A stretch of 64,000 nucleotides of DNA from Malania oleifera. Its lineage: Eukaryota; Streptophyta; Magnoliopsida; Santalales; Ximeniaceae. Every line of letters starts with the position of its first letter. Position 1 is the first letter of the stretch. A model generated the notes under the pieces. That model ran no database searches. It was not told the DNA's origin and saw nothing but the letters and a program-made list of their open reading frames with translations. Location of the stretch: positions 2,976,001 through 3,040,000 of the forward strand of contig NC_080421.1 in NCBI RefSeq assembly GCF_029873635.1. The letters run 5' to 3'. Position numbers and translations under genes: made by a program. Of this stretch, positions 17,300-62,540 are shown in pieces.

Positions 17300-19970
17300 T
17301 GTAACGCCCTGAACCCTTAAACTCGAGTCCGGTGCGTTATACTTAATAAAATCCTAATAATCCATAAATCAATATATATATATACAGCGGAAAACATAAA
17401 CATAATTTCCATATAACAAAATACCAGAGTTTACTAATTCTAAATATAATCCATAATAAATCATTCATCACCTACATTTCCATAAACCTACATAACTCTC
17501 AAAACATTTCATTGTTTTCACAATCATTCCTTACTCAATAGATTTAAAACGTAAAAACATAAAACATAAAATATTTACATCCCCAAACTATTATAAAAAT
17601 ATACTCGTTTTCTTTATATTTCCCAAAAAATGTTATAACACCTTGAACTCTCTAAGTTCGATCTCGAGAAAATCCTGAAAAAGATAAATTCATATTCGGG
17701 TGAGACACATCTCAGTAAGGAAATAAACAATATATTAAAATAGTGTGTGGCTAACATGAGTTTATATAACAACATATCATTTAAAATTTGAAAATCATTA
17801 ATATAATTTCTGAAATCACTTTCTAATCCTAATCAAACACATGCAAAAGATTTAACCCACGAGATTACCCGACGATATGGGTGATTACCCACCCATACAA
17901 GTAACACCCCTCTGCTCTGATACATTTGGCAACTCGAATATTACAGCTGAGGCATACGAGGGCACTCACCTTATTCAATAAGCTCTCAAGTGTTAAATTG
18001 ATCTCGTACTCACACTGTTTAACAATAACTTACCGAAAAAGGCCCTAAGGATAGGGAAATCTACCCGCCCATACAAGTAGGTTCCCTTTGCCCTAGTACG
18101 TTATGCAGCTACTACCACATCTGAAACTACTAGTGCACTCACCTTTCTGAGCAAGCCCTCAGGCGAAAAGTTCGTCTCGCCAAAATATAACATGTTCTAC
18201 TAGCATAAATACTGCTAATACCATAATACATAATTCTTTTTATCATTATTCATTCATACACATCTGTTCATATTCTCATCGTTGACATTTCATAGCGTCT
18301 CATTTTATATGATTTTTTCCCATTTTGCATTCTTCACATATTACATTTCATTTCCATTTCGTTCTTTTCCATTTTATTTTCATTTCATAATCATTTTTAT
18401 TTTAATTCATAAATACTCGGCATCTTTTTAACCGTGGTTGGTTAGTTTCAGCATCCTTTCAGCTGTGGTCGGTATCTTTTCAACCGTGGTTGGTTAGCTT
18501 TGGCATCCTTTCAGTCATGGTCGGCATTTTTTCAGCCGTGATTGGTTAGTTTCAGCATCCTTTCAGTAGCGGTTGGCATCTTTTCAGTCGTGATTGGTTA
18601 GCTTCGGCATCCTTTCAGCTGTGGTCGACATATTTTCAGCCGTGATTGGTTAGCTTTGGCAATCTTTCAGTTGTGGTCGACATCTTTTTAACCGTGATTG
18701 GTTAGTTTCGACATCCTTTCAGCCGTGGTCGACATCTTTTCCGTCGTAATTGTTTCCATGATTGTATTAACACTCACATACAACATATTTCATATATCAT
18801 TTTCATACTCAATTCATTTTTTATATATCTTCCATCTCGTATATATAACATAATTTCACACAAAATTTTATTTTACTCATATCACACAATTTAGTAGTAA
18901 AATTCATATATATGTATTTTCCATACAATAAGTCAACTTGCATTTAACATTCATATGCTAGGAAAAATACCTTTGATTTCTTACATAATTATCCTAAAAA
19001 TATTTTCCACTTCCATCAGTTTATTTTCGCATATACATATTTAATAAATAGCCTTAAACTCAAAAAAAATATAATTTAAATAATTGACATTTTAAACTCA
19101 TACCGAAACATATACACGTATATATAATACAATTTTTTTTTTTATTAAATTTATAAAAATTCTGATTTAATATATATTTTTTCTCTTACCTGGTTTCTTG
19201 AATTACGCCAATAGGAATCCCAAAAAATACCTGCAGCGCTCACTCGGATTATGAATCAAAAATCCTAATTCCATTAAATCAATCCTAAATAAAATATGAT
19301 TTTAATATTTTCTAAACTCATAAATTCTAAATAAATAAATATACCTTTAAATATAGTCAAATTATCAAATTTCTCAAATCTCACCCTTACTTTGGAATGA
19401 AGTCTAGAAAATCTCAATTGAAAAATTACCTACGCCAAAATGACGACGATCATGACTAGGACCTCATGGTGGTGCCTGATCGTCATTTTAACAGCAAATT
19501 TAATAAAAAATTGAGAAATTAAGGAAAAGTTATCTTACCATAGGAATGGTGTTTAAATCACTCCCACAAAAAATATGCTCCAACAGAAATGTTGGTGGTG
19601 GAGTTAGGAATCCAATGACACCTTCCATTTCCCGATCGATCGAATATCTATCGAGAAATAAGGGGGGGAGAGAGAGAGATAGAGACAGAGACAGCGGAGT
19701 GATGAGAGGGTAAAAGACGGCAGAGAAAAGAGGAAGTGGACAATCCAATTTGAAATTGGATTCTGATTGCTTCCTGAAGAAGCATCAAATAAGGTATATA
19801 TATATTTTATAGCTTAACTTTTATATATATATATATATATATTAATTAGTTTTTTTATACTATTTTTTTATTTGTTTATTTAATATATTAATTTAATAAT
19901 ATTTAATTAATTAATTAATAATTACGCTTAATTTTATTTTTTTAATTAATTTATTTTTCAGGTTGTTACA
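17300..19970 (-). mobile_element. Solo LTR of a Ty3/gypsy element (LTR A)
   Basis: The unit begins TGTAACGCCC and ends GTTACA on the plus strand, and is flanked by perfect 5-bp duplications GTACT (17295-17299 and 19971-19975). Its 2671 bp contain no coding domain, so it is a solo LTR. Polarity is minus: on that strand a TATA-like run occurs near 19800, and the block TTACTGAGATGTGTCTCACCC occurs near 17700, as in LTRs B and C. Length and ends fit the long-LTR chromovirus (Del/Tekay-like) type, an inference since no pol domain is present. Confidence 0.85.
18419..18747. repeat. Minisatellite of about 60 bp units inside LTR A
   Basis: About five to six units of the form GGCATC(C/T)TTTCAGC(C/T)GTGGT(C/T)GG...TTGGTTAGCTT. 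It occupies the same relative place as unrelated minisatellites in LTRs B and C. Confidence 0.8.
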
Positions 19971-28249: not shown

Positions 28250-30601
28250 ATGGGAACTCTTCAACTCTCTCTTCCGCCGTCGTCCAGCCATACCCTCCAC
28301 GGCTGCCACCAACAGCCACCGTCGCCACCGCTACAGCGAAAGCTATTCCCCAAATGTGCACTGAGCAAACAAGCCTACCGCCGCCTTCTCTCGCAGTTCC
28401 CAATCCCCAAATTCACAGCATCTTCCCCCAAAGCCCAACCTCCCAACGCCGCCTCCCACTTCTCCCCTCTTGTCCTTCTTGTAAACCTCTCTCTCTCTCT
28501 CTGATTAAGAATTTACGGCTATTCAGCTAAGATGAAGAATGGTAGCTCCGAAATTAGTTGTTTTTATGCTAATCATGTTTCCAATTGTGTGTGTATGTGT
28601 GTATGTGAGATTAGGGATTTATGATGCCGCTCGGCTACTAATAAGAAGGGAAACTCCAAAATTAGTTCTTTCTATATGAATTTTTTTTCCCACTAGCATG
28701 GAAACACTCATTCTTGGACTTTCTTGCAGATTCCTAGAGGGCGCTTTGGCACCATATATGCTGCGTTTGCAGGAAGAAATCACGATGAATTGAGCTACGG
28801 CGATGAATTTCGTGATGAGCCCTTTTGGTTGAGTTTGATCAAAGAAGCAATCTGGTATTTTACTTGTGTTCTTTTTCTTAATTATGTTGGATTTATTCGT
28901 AGGCATGCTTAGATGATATCCCCATTTGCTGGAAGTGCATTGAGAACCCTAGGGAATTCATATGCTCATATGAAAAAGTTAGAAAGCATGAAGCATGTTG
29001 GGTATTTATCTTCCTTTCAGGGGTTTGAAATCTTTATTGGTCTTTCTGGTGGAGCAGCCAAGTCAGCTTAAATATATTGAATGGCCAAGCTTCAAAAGCA
29101 CGGTTTGTCTCTCCCAATTTTGAATGCATTCTTCGTAAATTCTGATTCATTTGTGTTAAGAGTCAGTCCGATGTTTAAGTTTTAATTAAGAAAACGAAAA
29201 ACAATGAAATGAATGCATGATAAACTGCTTTTTTGGATTAAGGTGGAGGATTGAAGATCGAGAGGAGGCATATTACATTTAAAAAATCAAAGAAAAACAT
29301 TTAATCGATCAAAATATGATTGGCGTGTGGAATAGGCTATCAGGCTATGTGCATGAATGTATATATACAACAACAAGAAGCCGCAAGTCCCACTAGTGGG
29401 GTTGGGTACATAAATTTTTCTCGCTAATTCACCCGATTCAGAGCATTTTCCTCTATTATATTAAGGGCTATTAAATCTTTCCTTACTGTTTCATTCCAAG
29501 TTATTTTATTTCTACCCCTACCCCTTTTCATGTCAAAAATCATAACTAACTTGCTACTCCTAATAGGTCTCTACTAGGCTTGCATTTGAAATGCCCAAAT
29601 CATCTATATCATCCCTCCCTTATCTTGTTTTCAATCATTGCTATGCTTAAATTATTTCATATATGTTCATTTCTTACTGTATCTTTTAATGTTAAACCAC
29701 TCATCCATCTTAACATACGCATCTTAGCAACTTTCATTTTTTGTACATGTTGTTTCTTAGTTGCCCAACATTCTAAACTATAAAGCATAACTGGCCTTAT
29801 AGCCGTCTTATAAAACTTTCCTTTTAATTTTAAGGGTATTCTACGATTACACAACACACTTGACGCTCTCCTCTATTTTACCCAACCTATCTTAATTCTA
29901 TGTGTTACATCTTCTTCAATATCCCTTCATCTTGCATAATAGATTCAAGATATCTAAATCTATCAGTGCTATTAATCTTTTGATTACCCAGTTTAATATT
30001 TTTTCTGTTGCTACTCCTTACCTTACTGAAATTACATTTCATATATTCTATCTTATTTCTACTTATCCTAAATATTTAGACTCTAATGTGGCTCTCCAAA
30101 GTTCTAGTTTAGACTTCTCTCTGCTCTTACTATCATCAATTAACACGATATCATCTGCAAACAACATATTCCAAGGGATCTCATTTTGCATATTCCTAGT
30201 AATTTTATCAATTACTAAAGTAAAAAAAAAATAAGAACGCAAAGTAGAACCTTGATATATACCTATTGTGATTGGAAACTCTCTAGAATCTCCTTCTATA
30301 GTCCTAAAGCTAGTCATTTCTTTATCATACATATCCTTAATGATCTCCCTTCTTTTTTAATACCCACCAAAGCACTTCCCTAAACTCTCTCTAGATCAAT
30401 AAAAACCATATGCACGCACTTCTTCTTTTCCCTAAACTTTTCCATTAAACTTCTTAAAAGATAAAAGTTTTTATTGTTGATCTCTGAGACATAAAACCAA
30501 ATTGATTTTCCAAAATCTTTGTTTCTAATCTTATTCTATGTTCAATTACTCTTTCCCATAATATTTCTCACATGATTCACAATCTTAATTCCATGATAGC
30601 A

Positions 30602-39059: not shown

Positions 39060-39734
39060 CCAGACACTATCCCAAAATCAAGGTAAGTAAAGTATTTTAG
39101 GGTTTAATGAATTATTTGAAGTATTCGGAACCTAAGAAGTGCTAAATGAGAATTGTTCTAGGAATTGAGTTGATTAATTAGGGGAAATGTGAATTTCAAG
39201 TTTTTGAACTACGAACGCCGTGGAACATAGGATTTAGGGTGTAAGTGGATCTCTCAGTAAGTAAGGCAAGGGGAATAAATTATAGCTGTATTTTAGAAAT
39301 TATGGGTTGAATAAATATGTGAAAATGGTGATATGATATTTTGACTGTATATATTATGATATGAATAATAGACCAAACTGTGTGACATATGAGTTATACT
39401 GAGAACATGTTTGAAACTGAGTTGCGTGAACTGCATGGTGAATTATGAGAATATGAGACAAACACATATTGAAATGTTTTAGTGCAGAAAAGAATATAAG
39501 AGAAACCCAGTGATGTTTATATACTGAACTATAATGATAAGAGAATTGTTTTATTGAGAAACAATGAAAAACTGATATATCGAAGAGTATTTTCTAAGAA
39601 ATGATGAAATATGTAAACATGGATGTGTACTGGAAAAAAGATGGAACATGATTAAGAAATGATTTCTATGATAAATGTGGTAGTATGAAATAATGATATG
39701 TTTTATACTGAGAAAAGTTGAAATACGTGAAATG

Positions 39735-39965
39735 AGAACCTATTGCGAATACTCAATTTGGAATATTGAAATGTGAATATGGAAATGTGAATACTACAAT
39801 GTGAATATTGAAATGAGAATATGAAAATGTGAATGTTGGGATATGAATACTGAAATGTGAATATTGCAATGCGAATACTACAATGTGAATAATGAATTGT
39901 GAATAGTGAAATGTGAATGTTGAAATGGGAATACTAGAATGTAAATGTGTAAATGTGAAAATGAG
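39735..39965. repeat. Minisatellite of about 15 bp units inside LTR B
   Basis: About 14 units of the type GAATA(T/C)T(G/A)AAATGT. Confidence 0.75.
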
Positions 39966-40895
39966 AACCCTGATGGATGGATTGTGATAGAAAGCACGAT
40001 ACCAATGCTAGCGGATAATAAGTGCAACCACACGGTCTCATGGAGAGTGTGGCGTGACACTCGAATGAGCCAGTGAGAAGGGTAGTTTTGGCCCCTGGAG
40101 TCCGGACCAAGGTTAGGCAGGTCATTCGTACTACAGATGGGTATATGGATTGTTTATTTTGATCTAACCGGGTACCGCGGATTAGATCCAGCCTTCGGGC
40201 CGCACAACCTCGATCAACCATGGGGCGAAGCATGGCGTGGAGAATATCCTCAGGGCAGTCATGAGTTGCAGACGCACATGTATTGGTTACCGAGAACACT
40301 CATGTGCTAGATGATGAAATGGAAATGAGAAAAGAAAGAGTGTGAGTTTAATAACATAAATAAATAAGGCGAAGTAGAACTCTCCGCCTAAGAGCTTACT
40401 GAGTAAGGTGAGTGCTCTGATAAGCATCAGTTGTAGTCATGCCTGAGTTAATCAGGCAGGCTTATAAACAATATCAGAGCAGAGGGGAGCTACATGTATG
40501 AGCGTGTAATCTCCCCTATCCCCGGGAGCTTTCGTTTATAAATATGGGTTGCATGCGAATGAGTTGAAAAATGGAATTAAAACTTATAAAAGCTTGTGTT
40601 TTATATCTATATAATTATGAGTATAAATTGTATATTTTTCTCGGATGGTATTATCACTGAAATAAGAATATTATGATATAACGAAACTCTTATTGCCACA
40701 CACTGTAAATAATTTATTCCGTCTTACTAAGATGTGTCTCACCCAAATATCTAATATTTTAGGAAATCGTAACAGACCAGGAGATAGAGCTCTAAGATAA
40801 AGAGGAGTTGGAACCCTGATAGACAAGGTGAGTGTTTTGAGCTAAGGATGTATGATTCCCCTAGAGTTTATGGTTGATTTTTGGGGATGTGTTAG

Positions 40896-49654: not shown

Positions 49655-50742
49655 AATTATGAATTATGAAATCATTGACAAGGGTGTATGCAGTAGGTAT
49701 ATTAATGTTATTAAGGATATGTACGTTGGAATAATGGCCAACATTAGGACTACACGTGGAGAGATTAGGAAATTTTCAATCACAATAGGTGTACATCAAG
49801 GATCTGCTTTGAGCCCTTGCCTTTTTGCTCCAATGATGGATAAACTTACTAGGAGTATCCAAAATGAGACTCCTTGATGTATGTTGTTTGTAAATGATAT
49901 TGTCTTGATTGATGAAATTAGGGGTGGAGTAGAATCTAAGTTAGAATTACTAAATAGAAGCTTTAGAATCTAGAGGTATTAGGATGAGTAGAAATAAGAC
50001 TAAATATATGAAATGTAATTTCAAACATAGCAAGAGGAATATTAGAGACAAAGTTGAACTTGATGATGAAGAAATCAATAGCACTAGTAGATTTTGATAC
50101 CTTAGATCTATTATACAAGCTAAAAGGGAAATTGAAGAAGATGTAATGCATAGAGTTAGAGTAGGTTAGGTAAAATGAAGAAGCATTTTGAGCATGTTGT
50201 GTGATCATAAAATACCTTTAAAATTAAAAAGGAAGTTCTATAGAACAACTATAAGACCAGCTATGTTATATGTATAAGAATGTTGGGCGACTAAGAAACA
50301 ACATATCCAAAAAATAAAAGTTGTTGAGATGAGAATGCTAAAATGGATGAGTGGTATAATGTTAAAAGATAAATTAAGAAATAAGCATATTCGCGGTAAG
50401 TTAGGCGTAGCTCTTATATAAGATAAATTAAGGAATGAGCACATTCATTATAAGTTAGGCATAACTCCTATATAAGATAAGATAGGGGAGGGCGGCTCAG
50501 ATGGTTTGGGCACCTAAAACATAGGTCAAATAGCACGTCTGTGAGGATGAATGAGTTACTGTTAAGGGTAGTAGAAGGGGTAAGGATATACCTAAAATAT
50601 AGGATGCGATAGTGAGTAAGGATTTCATAACTCTGAATTTGTCAAAGAAAATTGTCCATGATCCCACAAGTTTGCGAAAAGGGATTCACATAGCCAACCC
50701 CATCTTGTGGGACTTAAGTTTGGTTTGTTGTTATTGTTGTAT
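49655..50742 (+). mobile_element. 5'-truncated RTE LINE
   Basis: Starts inside the RT (GGTGTATGCAGTAGGTAT matches about 665-682) and follows the family through VHQGSALSP, a degenerate FADD region and the 3' UTR to a TTGTTGTTATTGTTG tail. Many stops and frameshifts, plus a small internal duplication near 50370-50470 (AAATTAAG(A/G)AAT(A/G)AGCA twice). A target duplication was not resolved. Confidence 0.85.
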
Positions 50743-51572: not shown

Positions 51573-53009
51573 ATTTAGTGTAGACTTGGCAAAGCGGATC
51601 GGGTCGGATAATCCGTAACAGATAAGGCAGATTATCAGGTAAAAAAATCATAATTCATATTAGACTCATTTAAGTGGCGGATTAGGCTGTTTTGGGTCAG
51701 ATAATTCATGGCGGATGGGCAAATAATCCGCCATTCTCAAATATAATTTTATTAATAATTTATTTCGACATAATTTTTCAAAGAAACAAATTACCACACA
51801 ATAAAATAATTCATAGATTAATATAAAAGGTAACCAATATTGGGTAAAATGAGTTTAACCAAAACTTTTTTAAACATAAATAAATTACATTAAACAGTAG
51901 CAATCAATAGGTAACCCCAAAAAGAACTTCAAATGGAAACAGAAAATGGGTGTCTTGGATTGAGCTACAAAGCATCTGAGAGTACTTTATATATAACATA
52001 GCATTTAAACACAACGTTCAGATTTAATTTAAAGCAATCACCCAATATAAATTGAGGTCTTGTTTAATTCAAAGCATTGGAGTATACTCTTATCATGAGT
52101 GCTAATTGCAGAATGAATTCGCGGTAGGTAGAACAATGAGGAAGAAGCATGTAAAAGAAAAATAAAGGTAATGGATTGCGTTGAGAAGTATTAACGGCAC
52201 CAGGCCAAGACGTAGTACCAGACAAAAAGGGGGTGATTATCAAAAGAATCCAACCAAAAATGGAGGCCTAGGGTAAAAGTTTCACAACAAATCAGTGTAT
52301 ACAATGTCTTCAACTTTCTTCCCATGCAATTTATCCATCTAACAATATCATTCCTCTCCCTCCAGAAACACAAGAACACACAGCCTAAACCTTCCTCGAT
52401 TTATTGTTGATCCTCTCCTTTCCTGCCATGAACAAGAGAACTAAGGTAGTTTGGCACAACCCACATAACATTGAACCACTGCCAATTAAGGAACCAAAGC
52501 TCCCCAGAAGCCAAGGCAGTGAGGCTAAATATGACTCCTCATCCATTTTACGCATATGGCACCATGCATACATATAATGTTCATGAAATTTTGAAGAAAT
52601 CAATATTGAAGAATTTCTGTTCATTTGATAATTAGAACGAGTGCTTGCACAAGTGCTGGATTGAGAAAATCCCCACTAATCTACTCAGCATTTTTTTTAA
52701 ACAGATTTTGAAAATCTAGTGCCATGCCTGTATACTTTTTTTCTTTCCTTATGTTAGGCTAAACTATGATATAATTTAAATGGATATCAATTCTCAACGC
52801 AAACATTGAAATTGATTTTTATGCTGGATAGGGAGTTGTGAAATATCAGTTGTTATGAAATATCCGTAGTCTTTAGAAGTATCCTGAAAGAGACCATGTC
52901 TGTACATACAGGCATACTGCATCTGCGTACATGTACGTATATAAACCAGAACATACCCAATTTAATACAACAACTGATTTAGCACAGATTACAACCACGG
53001 ACAGTTCTG

Positions 53010-53560
53010 TCCTATGGGTTGATTTCGAATAAGGTAGGAGGAAGACCCGAGTGTCTTCGGGGGACGTTGGAGGCCCCCTATGGTTAACAGGAGTGAGGAA
53101 GACATTGGCGCTAGGTGAACTGTGTGGGTGTTGGGCGGAAATATTGTGGACCGAGATGACTCTTCGTAATCTGGGAAGTGAGGCAGATTGAAGGAGACTC
53201 TGGCATCCGCAGGAGGTGAATCAGATTGAATGGAAGCTTGCATCCATGCGTGCACGTGTGAGTGGAGGATAACTGGGGCTGGGCGCTGGGCCAAAGCCCA
53301 TTTGAGTCCTTGTACTAGTTAGTTTCTTTATTGTTGCTTTTGTTACTAGTTGTTGGTATAAAACTGGGAGCAGCGGATATAGTGGGGTTAGCTAGAGAAT
53401 TGGGAATCTATTTTGTTTCTTTGTTTCTTTGGAGAGTGGCTCTCTCGAACCAACCAACCTGTAACTTCATTTCCGTTTTTATTGCCTTCAGTATTCATTC
53501 ATTCCATTTTCTTATTGAAATTCATCCAATCATCTAGCTCACACTAGGAGATTCATTACA
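53010..53560 (+). repeat. 5' LTR of the gene-capturing retroelement
   Basis: Homologous over its whole length to 61013-61607. Includes GTTGGTATAAAACTGGGAG (TATA-like) near 53352. Confidence 0.9.
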
Positions 53561-53689
53561 ATTGGTATCAGAACCAAACTCCGACCACCATGGGAGAGGG
53601 AACTCGCATGAACCAGATGTTGGAGTCCATTGCTGCCCTAAAGAGATCACAAGAAGAGCATTAGAAAGCTCAGGAGGAGATGCAAATCA

Positions 53690-54240
53690 CTCAAGCCGAA
53701 CAGCAAAAGCTACTCATCACCGTGACTCAACTGTTGGGAGCTCTCTTCGATGCTGTGAAGCTTCTCAACAAGCAGAAACTTGACCAGGAAGGGCCAGGAG
53801 AGACATCAAGCCACGAGTTCGGATACCAACACCGTGAGAGCTTCAATGGGGAGCAACACATTATAGACAAAGCAGAGGCAGAGACATTAGCGTTCCGGGC
53901 GGAGATCATCCTCTGCGAACTTATCAGTAACTCCTCCGGTGCTCTAAACAAGATTCCGATGAAGGGTGAGGCAGTCAACGAGGAGGCGGTTGATGAGATG
54001 GACGGTGACGATCAGTGCGAAATCGTGGAGCTCTACGCTATGGAGTCGCTTGTCGAGCACATCCATTTCTACGAGATCTGCGGAAAGGGATTTCATCAAG
54101 ATGTCAATCTGATAAAGCGCATGCGAGCTCACGGAAACCAACTCACAACCCTAGAAGCGCTCGCCAAGTCACCGAGCTACGCTGAGACCAAAAAGACGAG
54201 GTTCTCGCGCCTGTTCTAGGGCTGCAATCACATAAAATCT
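53690..54240 (+). pseudogene. Captured fragment of a STOP1/STOP2-type C2H2 zinc-finger gene
   Basis: The translated text carries the family's block before and across its first zinc finger: an acidic lead-in (CEIVEL), then EHIHF.EICGKGF, then MRAHGNQ, ALAK, TRFS and a GCN..KSH block. In plants these proteins are nuclear regulators of proton and aluminium tolerance. Only the middle of the gene is present. The left border with the gag-like start is not sharp. The right border passes straight into peptidase-like sequence. It is part of the LTR element above and is a fossil. Confidence 0.7.
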
Positions 54241-54383
54241 CACTATCTTGTGTTTGGTTTGATTTCCCTGATGAAGTCATCAGCGGGTGTCTCGAAAGTG
54301 AGTTCTATGGGGGCTTTAGGAATGTCTTCGTTCAAGAGTCCCCCTATAATGGAGTTTTTGCAAGGGTTGAAATTGCTTCCTGC
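54241..54383 (+). pseudogene. Captured fragment of thylakoidal processing peptidase (Plsp1/TPP), part 1
   Basis: VFGLISLMKSSAGVSKVSS and SSFKSPPIMEFLQGLKLLP follow the region of plant thylakoidal type I signal peptidases that lies before the membrane anchor. The family removes thylakoid-transfer signals in chloroplasts. The inner hAT is inserted at its right end. Confidence 0.75.
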
Positions 54384-54909
54384 CATAGTAGTTAAAAGCG
54401 CGCCTCAGGCGCAAGGCACAGTGAGGCGATGAGTCTGCCGCCTCATACCAGGTGGGGTGAGGCGACCTGCAAGAGGCGACCCCAGGCGAGACGAGGCGCA
54501 GTGAAGCGCGAGGCGCAGTGAGGCGCGCCTTGTGTATTTTTAAGCCATTTAAAGGAGACAAATAGCCCAAGCCAGACTCTTACCCCTCATTCGACTCAAA
54601 CGAACAGAGCCCTAGCCCCTTTCGACCCTTCAAAGCCCTTCGTGAGTTCGTTTGCGAGCCTTTGAACCAGCCGGAAGCCTTCGCGACTTCGTCTTCGAGC
54701 TTCGACCAGGATCGTGAGCTCATCTTCGACATTTTGAAGAAGCACGACCTGCGCAACTTCGTTTCGAACCAGCGGGAGCCCTCGCGAGTTCGTCTGCCTG
54801 CCTTCGAAGCAGTCGTGAGCTCGTCTGACTGCCTTCGAGCACGACGTGAGTTCGTCACGTCGCCTTCAACATTTCGAACCAGCTGGAGATCGTCTTTAAG
54901 CCTTCGAAC

Positions 54910-55140
54910 CTTTGTAAGTCTTCTTCTTCTTTTTCTTCTTCTTCTTCTGCTGCTGCTGCTGCTTGCGTCCCGCTGCCTGCTGCTTCTCTTCTCTTCTTCT
55001 TCTTCTTCTTCTTCTTCTGCTGCTGCTGCTCCTGCTGCCTGCTGCTTCTCTTCTTCTTCTTCTTCTTTTTCTTCTTCTTCCTGCTGCATGCTTGCTGCGT
55101 GCTGCTGACTGCTGCCTGCTCTTTTTCTTCTTCTTCTTCT
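54910..55140. repeat. (CTT)n and (CTG)n low-complexity run
   Basis: Alternating CTTCTT and CTGCTGCTG runs directly behind a GTAAGTC splice donor. The long Ser/Leu/Ala or Glu/Lys frames across it on either strand are composition artefacts. Confidence 0.85.
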
Positions 55141-55149
55141 TCTTTATAT

Positions 55150-55535
55150 GTAAGCTTACTGTTTTTTAATTTATAATATTTAGTTTAATTAATGTAAGCT
55201 TATAAATTATAACTAATAACATAATATTTATTTTTTTCACAGAAATTTAGCTACTGTTTTTAATTTATAATATTAAGTTTAATTAATGTAAACTTACAAA
55301 TTATAACTAATACATAATATTTATTTTTTTTACAGAAATTTAGCTACTGTTTTTTAATTTATAATATTAAGTTTAATTAATGTAAGCTTACAAATTATAA
55401 CTAATACATAATATTTATTTTTTTTACAGAAATTTAGCTACTGTTTTTTAATTTATAATATTTAGTTTAATTAATGTAAGTTTATAAATTATAACTAATA
55501 CATAACATTTATTCTTTTTATTGAAATTTAGGTAC
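55150..55535. repeat. Four tandem units of about 94 bp in the hAT leader intron
   Basis: Each unit has ATGTAAGCTTA, an AT-rich middle, and TATTTTTTTTACAGAAATTTAGCTACTG. Each of the first three thus holds a donor-like GTAAG and an acceptor-like TTTTTNACAG; the last unit is degenerate. Confidence 0.85.
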
Positions 55536-55605
55536 TGTTTTAATTTGTTTGGAAATGCATTATGTAAGTCTTAAATTTTAAATATATGATGCATTGTTTT
55601 TTCAG

Positions 55606-58280
55606 TTAGGATACGGGATACCAAGTCTAAAATCTTAAATGGAAGTATGCACATTTGGAGGATCAAAAAAATAGAAATAATTTGACTTGCAATTTTTGTG
55701 CTAAAGTCACAAGGGGAGGAATATTTCAAGCAAAACAACACATTGTCGGAGGATTTCGAAATGTGAAAGAATGCTCTAAGTGCCCTGCTCATGTACGTGA
55801 GGAGATTAAAGAGTATATGTTGAAGAAAGATATGGAAAAGGAGGAAAATGAGTTATTGCCCGACTTTGATGATATAGATCATTACGATGAAGATGAAGAA
55901 GATGAAGTTCAAGAAATTGACATTCGTGGCAAGAGAGTGTTTACTAGTGATGGAAGTAAAAGATCATACCAATCCAACTTGAAGAAACCAAAACAGAAGG
56001 GGCCTATAGACTTGGTTTTTACTCCCGATCCAAAGAAAGCGATTCAAGCTAGGAAAGAAGGGAAGATGAAGCAAACATCAATAAATGAAGCGTGCAAAAA
56101 AGAACTTAGAAAAAAGGCAATGGGAGATTTTGCTAGGTGGATGTATGATGCGGGGATACCATTTAATGCTGTACGTTTAAGCAGCTTTGCAGTGGCACTT
56201 GAATCGATTGGACAATATGGTCCTGGAATAAAGCCACTTAGCTATCATGAAGTGAGAGTTCCTTACCTAAAGGAGGAAGTCAGTCGAATGAAAGAGTTGT
56301 TGAAGGTCCATAAGGAGGAATGGACAAAATATGGCTGCTCAATTATGTCTGATGGTTGGAGAGATTCAGTTGCTAATAAGGACATAATCAACTTTTTAGT
56401 GAACTCTCCAAGGGGATCAGTATTCATCAAGTCTATTGATGCTTCTAATATTGTCAAGAATGCAGATAGAATGTATAGATTACTTGATGAGATGGTCGAA
56501 GAAATTGGAGAATCAAATGTGATTCAAGTGGTAACTGACAATGCGTCAAACTATGTTGCAGCAGGTAAGAACTTATTTTTAGAACTACTTTCTATAGTGT
56601 ATATATTGTTTATTTTAATATTTTAATGGCTTCATTCCTTGATTTTTCAACAGGGAGATTGTTGGAAGCGAAGAGGCACATTTATATTGGACACTGTGTG
56701 CTGCTCATTGCATTAATTTAATTTTGGAGGATATTGGGAAGATGCCTTCAATTCATGCAACTTTGAAAAGGGCAATTTTTTTGAATGGCTATATCTATAA
56801 TCGTGTTGGCGTTGTCAACTTGATGAGACAATTCACTGGAGGAAAGGAGTTGCTAAGACCTGCAGTTACAAGATTTGCAACTGCCTTCATCACCCTTCGT
56901 TCAATCCATCTTCAAAAGAATAACTTGAGGAAGATGTTTACTTCTGAAGATTGGAATACTACTAAATGGGCAAAGGAGGCGGCTGGCAAAAGAGCAGCTA
57001 CTATTGTTTTGATGCCTACTTTTTGGAGTACCATCGTCTATGCTCTTAAGTTAACAGGTCCACTTGTTCGTGTACTCCGTTTGGTTGATGGGGAAAAGAA
57101 AGCCTGCAATGGGATATATTTATGAAGCAATGGATAGGGCTAAGGAAGCCATAGCTAAGGCTTTTGGTGAGAGAGAGGATAAATTCAAGGAGGCATTTGA
57201 AATTATTGATACGAGGTGGGGATGCCAACTCCATCAACCGTTGCATGCAGCTGCACACTACTTGAATCCAGAATTTTTCTATTCAAACCCCAACATTTTG
57301 CAAGATGAAGAAATTATGACGGGTTTGTACAAATGTATTGGAAGGTTACTGCCAACTATTGAAATGCAAGATAAAGTTTCAAATGAGTTGGAAAAATACA
57401 ATGCCGCTAGTGGCGTCTTTGGAATTAGTTTGGCAGTGAGACAAAGGAAGACAAAAGCACCAGGTAAAGTGGCATTTGTACTACCTCTTCATTTTTGAAA
57501 ATTATTTTTGCTATTTACCTAGTAGGTATTCATTTAAAATTTATTTTATAACAGCGCAATGGTGGATGGCATATGGATCAACAACTCCAAACTTGCAAAA
57601 GTTTGCTGTGAAAATTCTTAGCCTCACGTGTAGTGCTACCGGCTGCGAAAGAAATTGGAGCATATTCCAACATGTAAGTCACTAGTATATCATGGATTAA
57701 TTATTAAAGAACAAGAACTACCAATCTACTGCTTTTTAGAATCATTATTAACCATATTACTTTAAACTTTTTGCAGCTTCATAGCAAAAGGAGAAATAGG
57801 CTATCCCAGCAACGCTTGAATGATTTGGTATTTGTGAAATATAATCGAACTCTGAGGCGTCGATACGACAAACGTGACGCCATTGATCCCATCCTCCTGA
57901 AGGACATTGATGATAGTAATGAGTGGTTGATTGGTAGGATGGATGGTGATTTTGATGAGGATGATGAACTTGTGTTTGAAGATGATATTTTGACTTGGGA
58001 TTCTGTTGCTAGAGCTGCTGGACTAAATAACCCCCCGCATCACACTAGATCAAGAATAAGTACAAATATGCCATCATCGTCTAAAGGAAGAGGAAGGGCT
58101 TCATCTAGTAGTGCAACCACTGGTAGGGGTCGGACCACAATGTTGGAACTTGTAGATGAGAATGAAATCCAAGTGGATAGTGCAGAGGAAACGGAAGAGG
58201 AAAAAAATGTTGGAGAAAACAATTCTAATGATCAAGAGGAAGATGATGATATCTTCACCGACCTAGTTGATGATGAGTGA
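55606..58280 (+). CDS. hAT transposase, four exons, two frameshifts
   Basis: Exons by GT/AG borders: 55606-56564, 56654-57463, 57555-57673 and 57777-58280. Exon 1 has a BED zinc finger (CNFCAKV ... KQHIVGGF) and the start of the DUF659 catalytic region with IMSDGWRD and VTDNASNY. Exon 2 continues it (LEDIGKMPSIHATLKRAI). Exons 3 and 4 give the hAT dimerisation domain (TCSATGCERNWS ... RLNDLVFVKYN) and an acidic tail. The probable DDE residues are the Asp of SDGW, the Asp of VTDN and the Glu of CERN; all are present. Exon 2 is one base short near 56675 and one base long near 57095. No in-frame ATG was found before the BED finger in exon 1, so the start may lie upstream or be lost. This copy is unlikely to be active. 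Confidence 0.9.
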
Positions 58281-58604
58281 TGAGTGATGATTGAGGACGA
58301 TTTTTAGATTTTATATTTTGAAATCTTTTATTGTACTCTTTTCTTTTGATGTTGAACTATGTTGAATTGTTGATGCTTTTGGGCTTCATCTTGGCAATTT
58401 TATTAAATTTCCAATTTTTTTATTGAATGTTTTGGCATTTTAAATTCTAATATCACTAGATATTCATATGTTCATATATAAATTACCCCAAATAGATATT
58501 TTACAACATTTTAATAATTGTGCGCCTCACGAAGCGAACGCCTTGGCTTCAAAGACCCTTTGCGCCTCGTCTCGCCTTGCGCCTCTGACTACTATGCTTC
58601 CTGC

Positions 58605-58846
58605 TAAAGGTTTCGATAGTTGAGGAAGTGGATTAAGGGGGAACAGGGTGTTATGAGGATGAAGATGATGAGAAATATGAAGAGATTTTTTAGTAGTTCG
58701 CTGAGATTTCTGAGAAGTTTGGTCGAAAGGGACTGGAGAGGAGCAATTGGCTTGCGCGATTGCTGAATTTTTGTTGGGAGGACGTGAAGGCTATTTTTAC
58801 AGCTTTGACTGTGAGTCTATTGTTTCGTTCCTTTTTAGCGGTGGAA
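58605..58846 (+). pseudogene. Captured fragment of thylakoidal processing peptidase (Plsp1/TPP), part 2
   Basis: Continues part 1 beyond the hAT. NWLARLLNFCWEDVK and FTALTVSLLFRSFLA match the stretch leading into and through the membrane anchor of the peptidase. The text changes abruptly to NUP188 just before the peptidase active-site region would begin. Confidence 0.8.
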
Positions 58847-60866
58847 TGCACCAGGCAGATTTTTATGCATGCTTTATATCATGGAATTTGCTCCAAAGAA
58901 AACAATGCCATTAAAAAGGAGGTACTGAATTTGGTTTCTAATGGATTGGAAGGCAACTTGTGTTCTCCAGAACCCTCTATCTTCTAGCCATCCTGAACAT
59001 ATGGATGTTGATTTGTTCACTTTGTGGGTTGAGGAGATATTGATAGAAGAAAATTTGGTATTGGACATCTTCTCCTTGCTTATTATGAGTCATTTTGCAG
59101 TTGCAATAGTGAGCAATGGAAAAAATTATGCTCAATTTATAAGGGAATCATATTTGGGTCATTTAACTGTGGAAAGCTGGCAGTATCCACTTAAGTAGTA
59201 CTGTCAATTTATCATGCCAAAGTTCGACTTTCACCTATCTTTATAGAAAACTTGGACCTGAGCAATTTTCTTCAAATGATTCATGATGAAAAACCGTTCA
59301 CGCAAGGTTCCTTTGTGTCTTCTGTGACTGATATGCAAGAGTTGGATGCTATAAATTCTGGTTTTGATGTGTTTCAAACAAAAGAAGCTGGGCCTTCAAT
59401 TCTTACATGGGCAGTGTTTCTGTGTTTAATTTCATCACTTCCAGGAAAAAAGGAAATTAATTTTCTAATGGAGATTGACCATATAGGTTTGGTTCGTCAA
59501 GTTTTTGAGGCAGCATCATTGAACAATTTTCTTGAGATCCTTCAAAGTGATGTATTGGAGGATTTTGATGTACCTGTTGCTGGTTACAAAAGTGTTATGA
59601 GAACATTTGTTTTTACATTCATAGCGTCTTATGAGATCAATCATCAGGTAGAAGATAATACCCTCAAGTTGACTCTGGACCTCCTTTGTAGCGTTTATCA
59701 AGGAGAGGAGTTACTTTGTGTGCAGTCTTGGGACAAGGACAGCTTCATTGATGGGCCTATTCACTGCCTTCTTTGGAATTTAGAGGGTGAATTCCCATTC
59801 AGGATTGTGGAATTTATTCGCCTTTTATCTGCCCTCTCTGAAGGAGCTTGGCCTGCAGAATGTGTGTATAATTTTCTAGATAAATCCGTTGGTATATCAT
59901 CTTTGTTTGAGATTAGCAGCAATACTTTGATGGATAATACTTCTGGAATTTCCGAAACACATTTGCCTTTGCACGATCCTGGAGTTGAAGGTTTGATTAT
60001 TCCTAGTGAAACACATGGCCATGTTTTGAAAGTAATTGACCAAAATGTTGCTCTTGTATGGTGGGACTCATGGGAGTATGCTCAATCTGGGGTGCTTGTA
60101 CTGCTTCTTCGCCTGACTCAAGAGCTTCATATTGATAGCAATGAGGAAGTCCTTGTTACTCTTAATCTGCTTTGTCATCTAGTTTCCTTCAACACAGTTG
60201 TATGTGTTAATTTGATAAATGTTGGCAGCCCATTGCTTGTTTCGGAAACTCATACAGATGGCCAGATGGAAACAAAATTGTGGGTTGATGTGGTAGGGAT
60301 TGTATGCACATTCATCAAAAAATTATCACCTAATTTGCATGGCAGTGTTGTAATGTCCATGGGTTTTAGCATTTTGGCAAAGATATTGAAATGTTCACCA
60401 TCTCATGTGACTGTAGTGGCTCTAAAGACAAATATATTTGAGGTGAATTTAGCAACGAATACATTTGATGTCGGCTGTAATGTTACAAGAAGTGCCTCAT
60501 GGTTGCTTTCTGGAAAACTTGCAAAATTTCTTTTAATAGACCGCGAGCAGAATGACAACTATTGCCCATTAACTACTTCAGTGCGAGAGTTCACCATGCA
60601 GGTTTTGAAAATGATTTTGTCATTGCTCGTCATATTCTCTCGTCAATATGTTTTAGTTCATCACGAGTCTTGGGAATACAAAGCAAAGGATGTTCGTTGG
60701 AAAGTGACGTTGAAGGTGCTTGAAGCCATAAAAAAATGCATTTTTTTCAATCCCATACTCATATAAACTGTGCATGGTCATTCGAGGCATTTTTCTTTAT
60801 GATTCTTCCATTGACAGTACATTCTTTCGAATAATTTGTACGACTACTGAGACTTTAAAGAGACGC
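58847..60866 (+). pseudogene. NUP188: Captured intronless fragment of nucleoporin NUP188
   Basis: About 2 kb of sequence matching the plant NUP188 (DUF3414) scaffold nucleoporin as I remember it. Blocks include ECTRQIFMHALY, PEHMDVDLFTLWVEE, TWAVFLCLISSLPGK, VYNFLDKSVGISSLFEI, GVLVLLLRLTQEL and FRIICTTTETLK. The normal gene has many introns and none is visible here, so the piece came from an mRNA. It runs directly into the retroelement's pol tail (RIKGRGKILATDVL). The longest uninterrupted stretch is 59252-60766. It is part of the LTR element and not a working gene. Confidence 0.88.
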
Positions 60867-61012
60867 ATTAAGGGAAGGGGGAAAATTTTGGCAACAGATG
60901 TACTGGTTCGATGGGAGGGGCAAGAGAAGGAAGATGTAACGTGGGAGTGGTATCATACGTTGAAGGAGCAGTTTCCTCACCTTGTGGGCAAGGTGCTTTG
61001 AGGGGAGGGTAT

Positions 61013-61607
61013 TGCTATGGCTTGATTTCGAATAAGGTAGGAGGAAGACCCGAGTGTCTTCGGAGGACGTTGGAGGCCACCTATGGTTAACAGGAGTGGG
61101 GAAGACACTGGCATTGGGTGAACTGTGTGGGTCTTGGGCAGAAATATTGTGGACCGAGATGACTCTTCGTAATATGGGAAGTGAGGCAGATTGAAGGAAA
61201 CTCTGGCGTCCGCAGGAGGTGAATCAGATTGAATGGAAGCTTGCGTCCGTGCGTGCACGTGTGAGCGGAGGATAACTGGGGCTGGGCGCTGGGCCAAAGC
61301 CCATTTGAGTCCTTGGACTAGTTAGTTTCTTTATTGTTGCTTTTGTTACTAGTTGTTGGTATAAAACTGGGAGCAGCGGGAATAGTGGGGTTAGCTAGAG
61401 AATTGGGAATCTGTTTTGTTTCTTTGTTTCTTTGGAGAGTGGCTCTCTCGAACCAGCCAACCTGTAACTTCATTTCCGTTTTTATTGCATTCAATATTCA
61501 TTCATTCATTCCATTTTCTTATTGAAATTCATCCATTCATTTCATTCACTCCATTTTCTTATTGAAATTCATCCAATCATCTAGCTCACACTAGGAGATT
61601 CATTACA
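61013..61607 (+). repeat. 3' LTR of the gene-capturing retroelement
   Basis: About 96% like the 5' LTR. It is 44 bp longer, mainly from an extra copy of a TTCTTATTGAAATTCATCC unit near 61510-61575. Confidence 0.9.
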
Positions 61608-61819
61608 TTCTGCTGCTTCCGCAGTTGGTTAAAGCCATGTCATGTATCACCAAAACATCCAACAGAAAGAGAAGATGAAATTTATGAATTATAAAGGCCA
61701 GCGAAAGAATTAATTTTCATTGCCCTACCTTCTTTTCTTGTTTATGTAGAAGCAGAAAATTCTGTAGAAATATGTAATGTCCTAATATGCAATAACAGAG
61801 ACGCGGAAGAAGCAGATCT

Positions 61820-62110
61820 GCAGAAGAAGAAGAAGAAGAAGAAGAAGAAGAAGAAGACTTACAAGTTCGAACTTCGAAGCAGATGAACTCACGAAGGCTC
61901 GAAAACGAGTTTGCGAAGAGCTCCTTCTGGTTCGAAATGTCGACGATGAACTCACGAAGCTCCTGACGAACTCGCGAAGGGCTCCTGCTGGTTCGCACTG
62001 TGGAAGACCAACTCACGAAGCTCCTGCTGCTGGTTCGAAGGGTCCACGACGAACTCACGAAGCTCCTGACGAACTCGCGAAGGGCTCCTGCTGGTTCGAA
62101 GTGTGGAAGA
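61820..62110 (-). other. hAT leader-like GC-rich segment of the outer element
   Basis: Read on the minus strand it repeats TTCGAACCAGCAGGAGC and CTTCG(C/T)GAGTTCGTC and ends TTGTAAGTCTTCTTCTTC. The inner hAT leader at 54600-54920 has the same phrases in the same direction and the same donor and CTT run. It is likely an untranslated first exon. Confidence 0.6.
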
Positions 62111-62540
62111 CCAAGGGTTTCGTGCCGGAATAGGGCTAGGGCTCGTTGTGCTCTGGAGCCTGGCAATTTGAGAATCTGGGACAGTGGGACTGGGCTGGCA
62201 TGGGGCTGGGAGTGGCTGGGGCCGAGCGGGGCTGGGTGCTGTCAGCTGCGTCTGTGTGGCGACAGTGGCTTGTGGGCCGTGTCACGTGTGGGCACTGGGA
62301 TTTGGCCTTGGGCACTTGAGCAGTGGGCTGTTGGGCTTTTATGGATTAATAAGTAATAGGCTTTTAAGCATGTTGGTATCCGCCAGATAAATCCGACCCG
62401 ACTCACTAAGGAGGCAGATATAAAAATAAAAAATTATATTCAATTTATTTAGCAAGCGGTTGATAATGAATCGGTTAAAATGGGTCGGATGCAGTTTGGA
62501 TTAACGGATTTTTATCCATTTTGTCATATCTAATTTGGTG

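Follow-up and report, generated by a model that had tools for sequence, protein, structure and literature searches.

Bs1 of maize is a long terminal repeat (LTR) element without a reverse transcriptase of its own. In its published account, it holds pieces of three host genes (for a membrane ATPase, a xylan endohydrolase and a beta-1,3-glucanase) and yields a chimeric gene (PMC13317346). Intact LTR elements with host gene fragments number 425 in a maize survey (PMC2774510), and captured genes in such elements are put at 672 in rice and 1,343 in sorghum (PMC3726574). Under the conditions of the maize survey, no single element among the 425 had fragments from two or more standard nuclear genes; the same source gives maize counts for two other collectors of host fragments, Pack-MULEs and gene-capturing Helitrons (PMC2774510). 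Here we describe an LTR element at positions 53010–61607 of a 64,000-nt stretch of Malania oleifera DNA (NC_080421.1, positions 2,976,001–3,040,000; hereafter the window, to which the element coordinates refer), together with the family to which it belongs.

Like Bs1, the Malania family is an LTR element carrying several host-gene pieces, and it shares the possession of host gene fragments with the capturing LTR elements reported from maize, rice and sorghum. It differs from the published Bs1, with its three pieces, in that the elements we read from LTR to LTR hold four to eight, and in that at least 13 loci have one common join while the cargo is reshuffled between copies; one element, S2, holds eight host pieces, in contrast to what the maize survey reports. 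Pack-MULEs and Helitrons also collect and shuffle several host fragments, but they are DNA elements that capture at the DNA level, introns included, whereas the NUP188 piece of the Malania family was captured from spliced RNA. A preliminary description of the locus had called three captures in one element unusual, which does not hold, because Bs1 itself carries three. Gene-capturing LTR elements are already known, and the new aspect is serial, reshuffled, frame-keeping capture of up to eight pieces. In the titles and abstract openings of the open-licence literature, we found no description of this family or of any LTR element with captures from more than three genes, nor was serial, reshuffled, frame-keeping capture of eight genes found described in that literature. 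We consider it highly probable that this is a non-autonomous Ty3/gypsy-type family that has captured host mRNAs serially by template switching, is mobilised in trans and is favoured when its frame stays open.

The window copy is arranged as follows.

53005–53009, no strand: 5′ copy of the target site duplication (TSD), TTCTG, from comparison of the flanks
53010–53560, plus strand: 5′ LTR, 551 nt, 527 of 551 aligned bases identical to the 3′ LTR, Kimura two-parameter distance (K2P) 0.045
53563–53575, plus strand: primer binding site (PBS)-like TGGTATCAGAACC, read from the sequence and presumably of the initiator-Met tRNA type
53590–53875, plus strand: gag-like start, with ATG at 53590 and one in-frame TAG, recurring in other loci
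About 53872–53949, plus strand: captured HSP90 N-terminal piece, from PDB matches in two collinear blocks
53950–54243, plus strand: captured STOP1/STOP2-type zinc-finger piece, from an ungapped match to a host gene
54246–54383, plus strand: captured thylakoidal processing peptidase (TPP) part 1, including the hAT TSD CTTCCTGC at 54376–54383; 138 bases, 86% to the host TPP locus L048
54384–58596, plus strand: hAT insertion, later and outside the retroelement proper, from its ends, DUF659 and genomic copies
58605–58841, plus strand: captured TPP part 2 (host match 58608–58841); 234 bases, 91% to C8:90601192–90601425
58842–60860, plus strand: captured and spliced NUP188 piece, covered by 16 host exon matches over 58869–60860
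60861–61001, plus strand: gypsy-type chromodomain tail ending at stop TGA, from PF00385 and 83% to locus L072
61000–61012, plus strand: polypurine tract (PPT) GAGGGGAGGG(TAT); similar tracts in the sister copies S1–S3
61013–61607, plus strand: 3′ LTR, 595 nt, TG start and CA end, from the LTR alignment
61608–61612, no strand: 3′ copy of the TSD, TTCTG, from comparison of the flanks

The NUP188 piece carries the argument for capture at the RNA level. Its open reading frame (ORF) of 523 aa at 59195–60766 matches plant NUP188 (9sob_B, E 1.6e-180), and the match to cotton NUP188 (P0001) runs over 58841–60745 and 60732–60878 with a frameshift late in the piece. A search of the M. oleifera assembly (1,494,336,490 bases; chromosomes C2, C4–C9 and C12 are named here) with 58605–60878, in which all 27 candidates were scored, located the host NUP188 gene through 16 exon matches that span 54 kb (C5:5738128–5792334); the published genome size is 1.5 Gb (PMC10199050). 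Splice-site sequence is present at most ends of the host exons, and the same exons abut in the element, which differs from the host gene by K2P 0.073 over 2,034 bases; positions 58842–58868 had no host exon match in this search. As exon matches lying 54 kb apart in the host are joined in the element, the NUP188 piece is derived from spliced mRNA, the outcome that the preliminary description had hoped for from an alignment to the host loci. NUP188 gene models of other plants break recurrently within the captured region, in agreement with introns in the donor; intron sites taken from these broken models were superseded by the host gene itself. A rival view is that the host fragments were inserted as DNA between unrelated repeats, through nesting of insertions, filling of gaps or local duplication; it could appeal to the NUP188 donor, which lies on the window's own chromosome about 2.7 Mb away. 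It is refuted for NUP188 by the splicing, and the matched LTRs, the TSDs and five LTR-to-LTR copies over three chromosomes make it scarcely credible overall. The STOP and TPP donors are on C7 and C8. Retained host introns, or LTR-like ends of unrelated origin around local duplications, had been named beforehand as fatal to the capture reading; neither is seen, because the NUP188 exons are joined, the LTRs have a common origin and the donors are found at other loci.

The other pieces could also be identified. The STOP piece aligns with the host gene at C7:8571900–8573600 (P0042) over 294 bases, gap-free and at 85.4%, and P0042 reads off C7 letter for letter over 441 aa; a protein search with the piece returned two proteins among 132 candidates, both from M. 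oleifera. The TPP identity, taken at first from a match to a protein sequence, was later borne out by the host locus. A protein database search with 58592–59389 yielded 15 candidates, of which none passed, and Pfam and NCBIfam gave no usable match for the TPP pieces. The preliminary description had recognised STOP, TPP and NUP188, all of which are present, but overlooked HSP90 as a fourth. A search with 39 aa of this piece gave 124 PDB sequences with E values of 1 or less, and the 60 shown were all HSP90-type (best E 0.0019); the match is short and in two collinear blocks, with about 17 codons absent between two Glu-Ile repeats, and the domain databases returned a weak NCBIfam HtpG match only (E 0.053) and nothing from Pfam. 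The same HSP90 piece occurs at five further loci (L013–L017) with an HSP90-like start codon and leader in front. Divergence from the host gene is 0.167 for STOP, 0.158 for TPP part 1 and 0.073 for NUP188, and such unequal values are as expected with captures at different times.

The window copy has the ends of an LTR retrotransposon, namely paired LTRs of common origin, TG and CA termini and a short TSD that is identical on both sides, as described before. The two LTRs have 24 differences over 551 aligned bases; the 3′ LTR is longer by 44 bases at an internal duplication and keeps its TG, and the 5′ LTR start is mutated from TG to TC. Both the PBS-like stretch after the 5′ LTR and the PPT ahead of the 3′ LTR are present. 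The chromodomain (60855–61001; PF00385, E 4.4e-6, 27.0 bits versus a cut-off of 25.1) stands at the 3′ end of the coding region, as in the chromodomain group of Ty3/gypsy elements. Pfam detected no pol domain (reverse transcriptase or integrase core) in 10 plus-strand ORFs of the element, in which the clear matches were the hAT DUF659 and the chromodomain, and the interior apart from the hAT is nearly all assigned to non-pol sequence. Thus, the layout given in the preliminary description, from a gag-like start to a chromodomain-like tail and without reverse transcriptase, is borne out, and with the spliced NUP188 so is its view of a non-autonomous gypsy-type element capturing several host mRNAs. 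The window copy is decayed by stop codons, frameshifts and the hAT insertion.

The single element of the preliminary description stands as a copy, but it turns out to be a decayed member of a family in which some relatives have more cargo. A genome search with 53561–54383 (40 of 90 candidates scored) and one with the S2 cargo (40 of 42 scored) give locus counts that are lower bounds. Five elements on three chromosomes were read from LTR to LTR, each with a 5-bp TSD.

Window copy: TSD TTCTG; LTR K2P 0.045; HSP90, STOP, TPP, NUP188 and chromodomain, plus the hAT
S1 (L009), C5:2460500–2466600: TSD TAAAT; LTR K2P 0.067; the window cargo minus the hAT
S2 (L010), C9: TSD GGGTC; LTR K2P 0.0072; eight host pieces; the youngest
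S3 (L011), C9: TSD CATAG; LTR K2P 0.035; HSP90, STOP, TPP, NUP188, DExH helicase, PPR and chromodomain
S4 (L020 and L040), C4: TSD CACCT; LTR K2P 0.031; cargo without HSP90

In S2, Pfam and PDB matches within a 1193-aa stop-to-stop frame assign trehalose-P synthase to residues 354–772, DEAH helicase to 778–815, PPR to 808–880, copper ATPase to 877–997 and NUP188 to 987–1154, with HSP90, STOP and TPP preceding the trehalose-P synthase match in frame. S4 reads as a longer STOP, TPP, trehalose-P synthase, copper ATPase, more trehalose-P synthase (the phosphatase part) and chromodomain, where the continuation of the copper ATPase into L040 was judged by eye. The nine loci L013–L021, among them L020 of S4, were read mostly over 3.4–3.5 kb, with 3′ parts read for L020 (L040) and L013 (L041); L013 carries a piece of a VARLMGL-type protein (PF14383, E 1.4e-5). 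Judged from these sequences, cargo is gained, lost and exchanged among copies, because S1–S4 and L013 differ in their pieces and S2 joins an S3-like DEAH–PPR block to an S1-like NUP188 end. Apart from S2 and S3, at least 15 loci have this DEAH–PPR block at 88–94%; in one of these it is partial, and another is the locus at C4:1.35 Mb, where part of the STOP piece is also found; the PPR part alone occurs at 85–91% in at least eight more, which may be elements or host genes. Further cargo loci carry NUP188 (C12:86182754 and C9:42020762), trehalose-P synthase (C6:61657755) and copper ATPase (C2:144411106), and the gag start alone (query 1–315 of 53561–54383) is present in many loci.

The join of STOP to TPP is common to at least 13 loci, which answers the earlier suggestion that sister copies be sought and documents replication after capture. 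Because 13 copies share it, this fusion arose once, and one could suppose that a single pre-fused host transcript or retrogene was captured in one event instead of several mRNAs successively. We regard this as very unlikely, given that S4-type copies have a longer STOP and no HSP90, that the HSP90 with start codon and leader in L013–L017 sits behind a different gag, that S2 and S3 contain further genes and that the pieces diverge unequally from the host; moreover, no fused host locus was recognised in the three genome searches (40 of 90, 27 of 27 and 40 of 42 candidates scored).

One copy of the family, S1, has been predicted as a gene and named a zinc-finger protein, which illustrates the hazard for annotation. 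The prediction P0041, 'zinc finger protein STAR3-like', is the gag–HSP90–STOP–TPP frame of S1, in a gene model that bypasses one stop and terminates at the following one; it was dropped as a separate second sister once its sequence placed it at S1. The window copy and P0041 share 14 amino-acid changes (14 of 98 sites). We rejected these as marks of the whole family and take them to mark only a part of it, since S3 lacks several.

Nearly all joins assessed keep the native frame, with one exception and later indels aside. The S2 reading frame is unbroken for 1107 codons, starting at the gag ATG and extending a few codons into the 3′ LTR; it contains all nine joins, with the eight host pieces in their native frames. 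With random frames, nine such joins in a row would have a chance of 3^-9, which is a guide only, because part of the joins were inherited and deletions account for some. The window copy links native frames at each of its five joins, and later indels shift the blocks relative to each other. S3 has two long frames, of 570 and 595 codons, separated by one frameshift, and frame is kept at the joins that could be read in S3 and S4, the latter with one stop ahead of the chromodomain in the same frame.

The unbroken S2 frame and the frame kept at nearly all joins would also be expected if the fused frame encoded a protein useful to the element or the host and were kept by selection on its amino acids. 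Between copies, NG86 dN/dS is 0.47–0.62, and the six pairs of the window copy, S1, S2 and S3 (gag to TPP part 1) give binomial p values of 0.0075–0.094 against the expectation at equal mutation rates. However, the nonsynonymous share of changes in these pairs is 0.645–0.711; neutral evolution would give 0.75 if transitions were not favoured, 0.72 with a bias of 2 and 0.68–0.70 with a bias of 3. Since the copies themselves have about three transitions per transversion, the observed share fits neutrality, and amino-acid change looks near neutral in these alignments with no clear constraint; purifying selection on the cargo is unsupported once transition bias is modelled. The window copy, S1 and S2 have lost two zinc-ligand positions of the STOP finger, which we assign from the C2H2 pattern; S3 keeps them. 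With cargo also varying between copies, a useful protein seems an unlikely reason for the open frame, though a less remote one than a single capture.

Reverse transcriptase may have come from a relative on C2, L022 with L072, which has RVT_1 (E 7.6e-35) and RT_RNaseH (E 3.7e-25); integrase was not detected in the L072 ORFs scanned. The gag start of this relative matches at 94% and its chromodomain at 83% (94 bases), and such an element probably mobilises the family. In the serial-capture reading, the reverse transcriptase of the partner would copy family RNA and co-packaged spliced host mRNAs, most likely with template switching and partly at short shared sequences, by which pol would be replaced with the HSP90, STOP, TPP and NUP188 pieces. 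The resulting chimera could be mobilised in trans and spread because it kept PBS, PPT and LTRs. Pieces such as those of trehalose-P synthase, copper ATPase, DExH helicase and PPR, among others, would be gained or lost in later rounds and be shuffled as copies recombined with each other. Chimeras open from gag to chromodomain would be favoured, probably since translation keeps the RNA stable or packageable, with amino-acid content nearly irrelevant. Template switching, mobilisation by an L022+L072-like relative and selection on the frame are thus the parts of the scheme that we infer. Whether capture of host mRNAs has become habitual in this lineage we see as evenly balanced. Its pol-free members would then go on lengthening and trading the open frame from gag to chromodomain with any host mRNAs packaged alongside; as selection would see the frame and not the content, the lineage would work as a natural engine of exon shuffling and give out long multi-domain chimeric proteins.

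Several observations weigh against serial capture as set out above. The one join out of frame, between trehalose-P synthase and VARLMGL, is in L013, the only copy available for comparison. The decayed loci L016, L019 and L021 change frame between blocks, and at least in L016 this happens at a join that stays in frame in L018 and L020. Short shared bases at the junctions, anticipated in the preliminary description, were found at the gag–HSP90 join (four bases, GCAG, from a relative's gag and the leader form of HSP90) and may recur at the HSP90–STOP join as AAGAT, but the STOP–TPP join has no clear microhomology, and two of its bases (TA) are explained by neither donor. That description took STOP, TPP and NUP188 alike as intronless. 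All three match host genes, but intron loss relative to the donor is found for NUP188 only, and STOP and TPP cannot show splicing because their captured parts sit in single exons (the host STOP coding region is single-exon, and the TPP piece is within one exon). The trehalose-P synthase donor was not found, as the closest host loci are just 66–67% to the captured piece (query L010:2820–4771), far below the other pieces; it may have been lost from the genome. Copper ATPase and PPR donors were not recognised in the S2 cargo search. In the candidate partner, the ORFs read are broken.

Single captures by LTR elements are well known, and the family addresses how often captures accumulate and how important the resulting frames are. 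One genome offers dated copies of varied age and cargo, orderable joins, several identifiable donors and a likely partner, and for this reason the steps of exon shuffling by retroelements, including selection on the open frame, are testable here.

The hAT that splits the TPP piece is flanked by an 8-bp TSD (54376–54383 and 58597–58604) and encodes DUF659 (Pfam E 5e-39), with intron-like breaks separating its ORFs. Its left end matches 36 further loci among 40 scored, at 87–95%, and the same kind of hAT adjoins the L013 element (L041). Just beyond the 3′ LTR, 61790–62140 resembles, in inverted and degenerate form, the subterminal region of the hAT (54638–55140) and is perhaps a related hAT fragment. 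Elsewhere in the window, a repeat is present in three copies 71–85% alike (662–1661, 29571–30560, inverted, and 49680–50726), and tandem repeats occupy 39719–39984 (14-bp unit) and 18367–18782 (52-bp unit).

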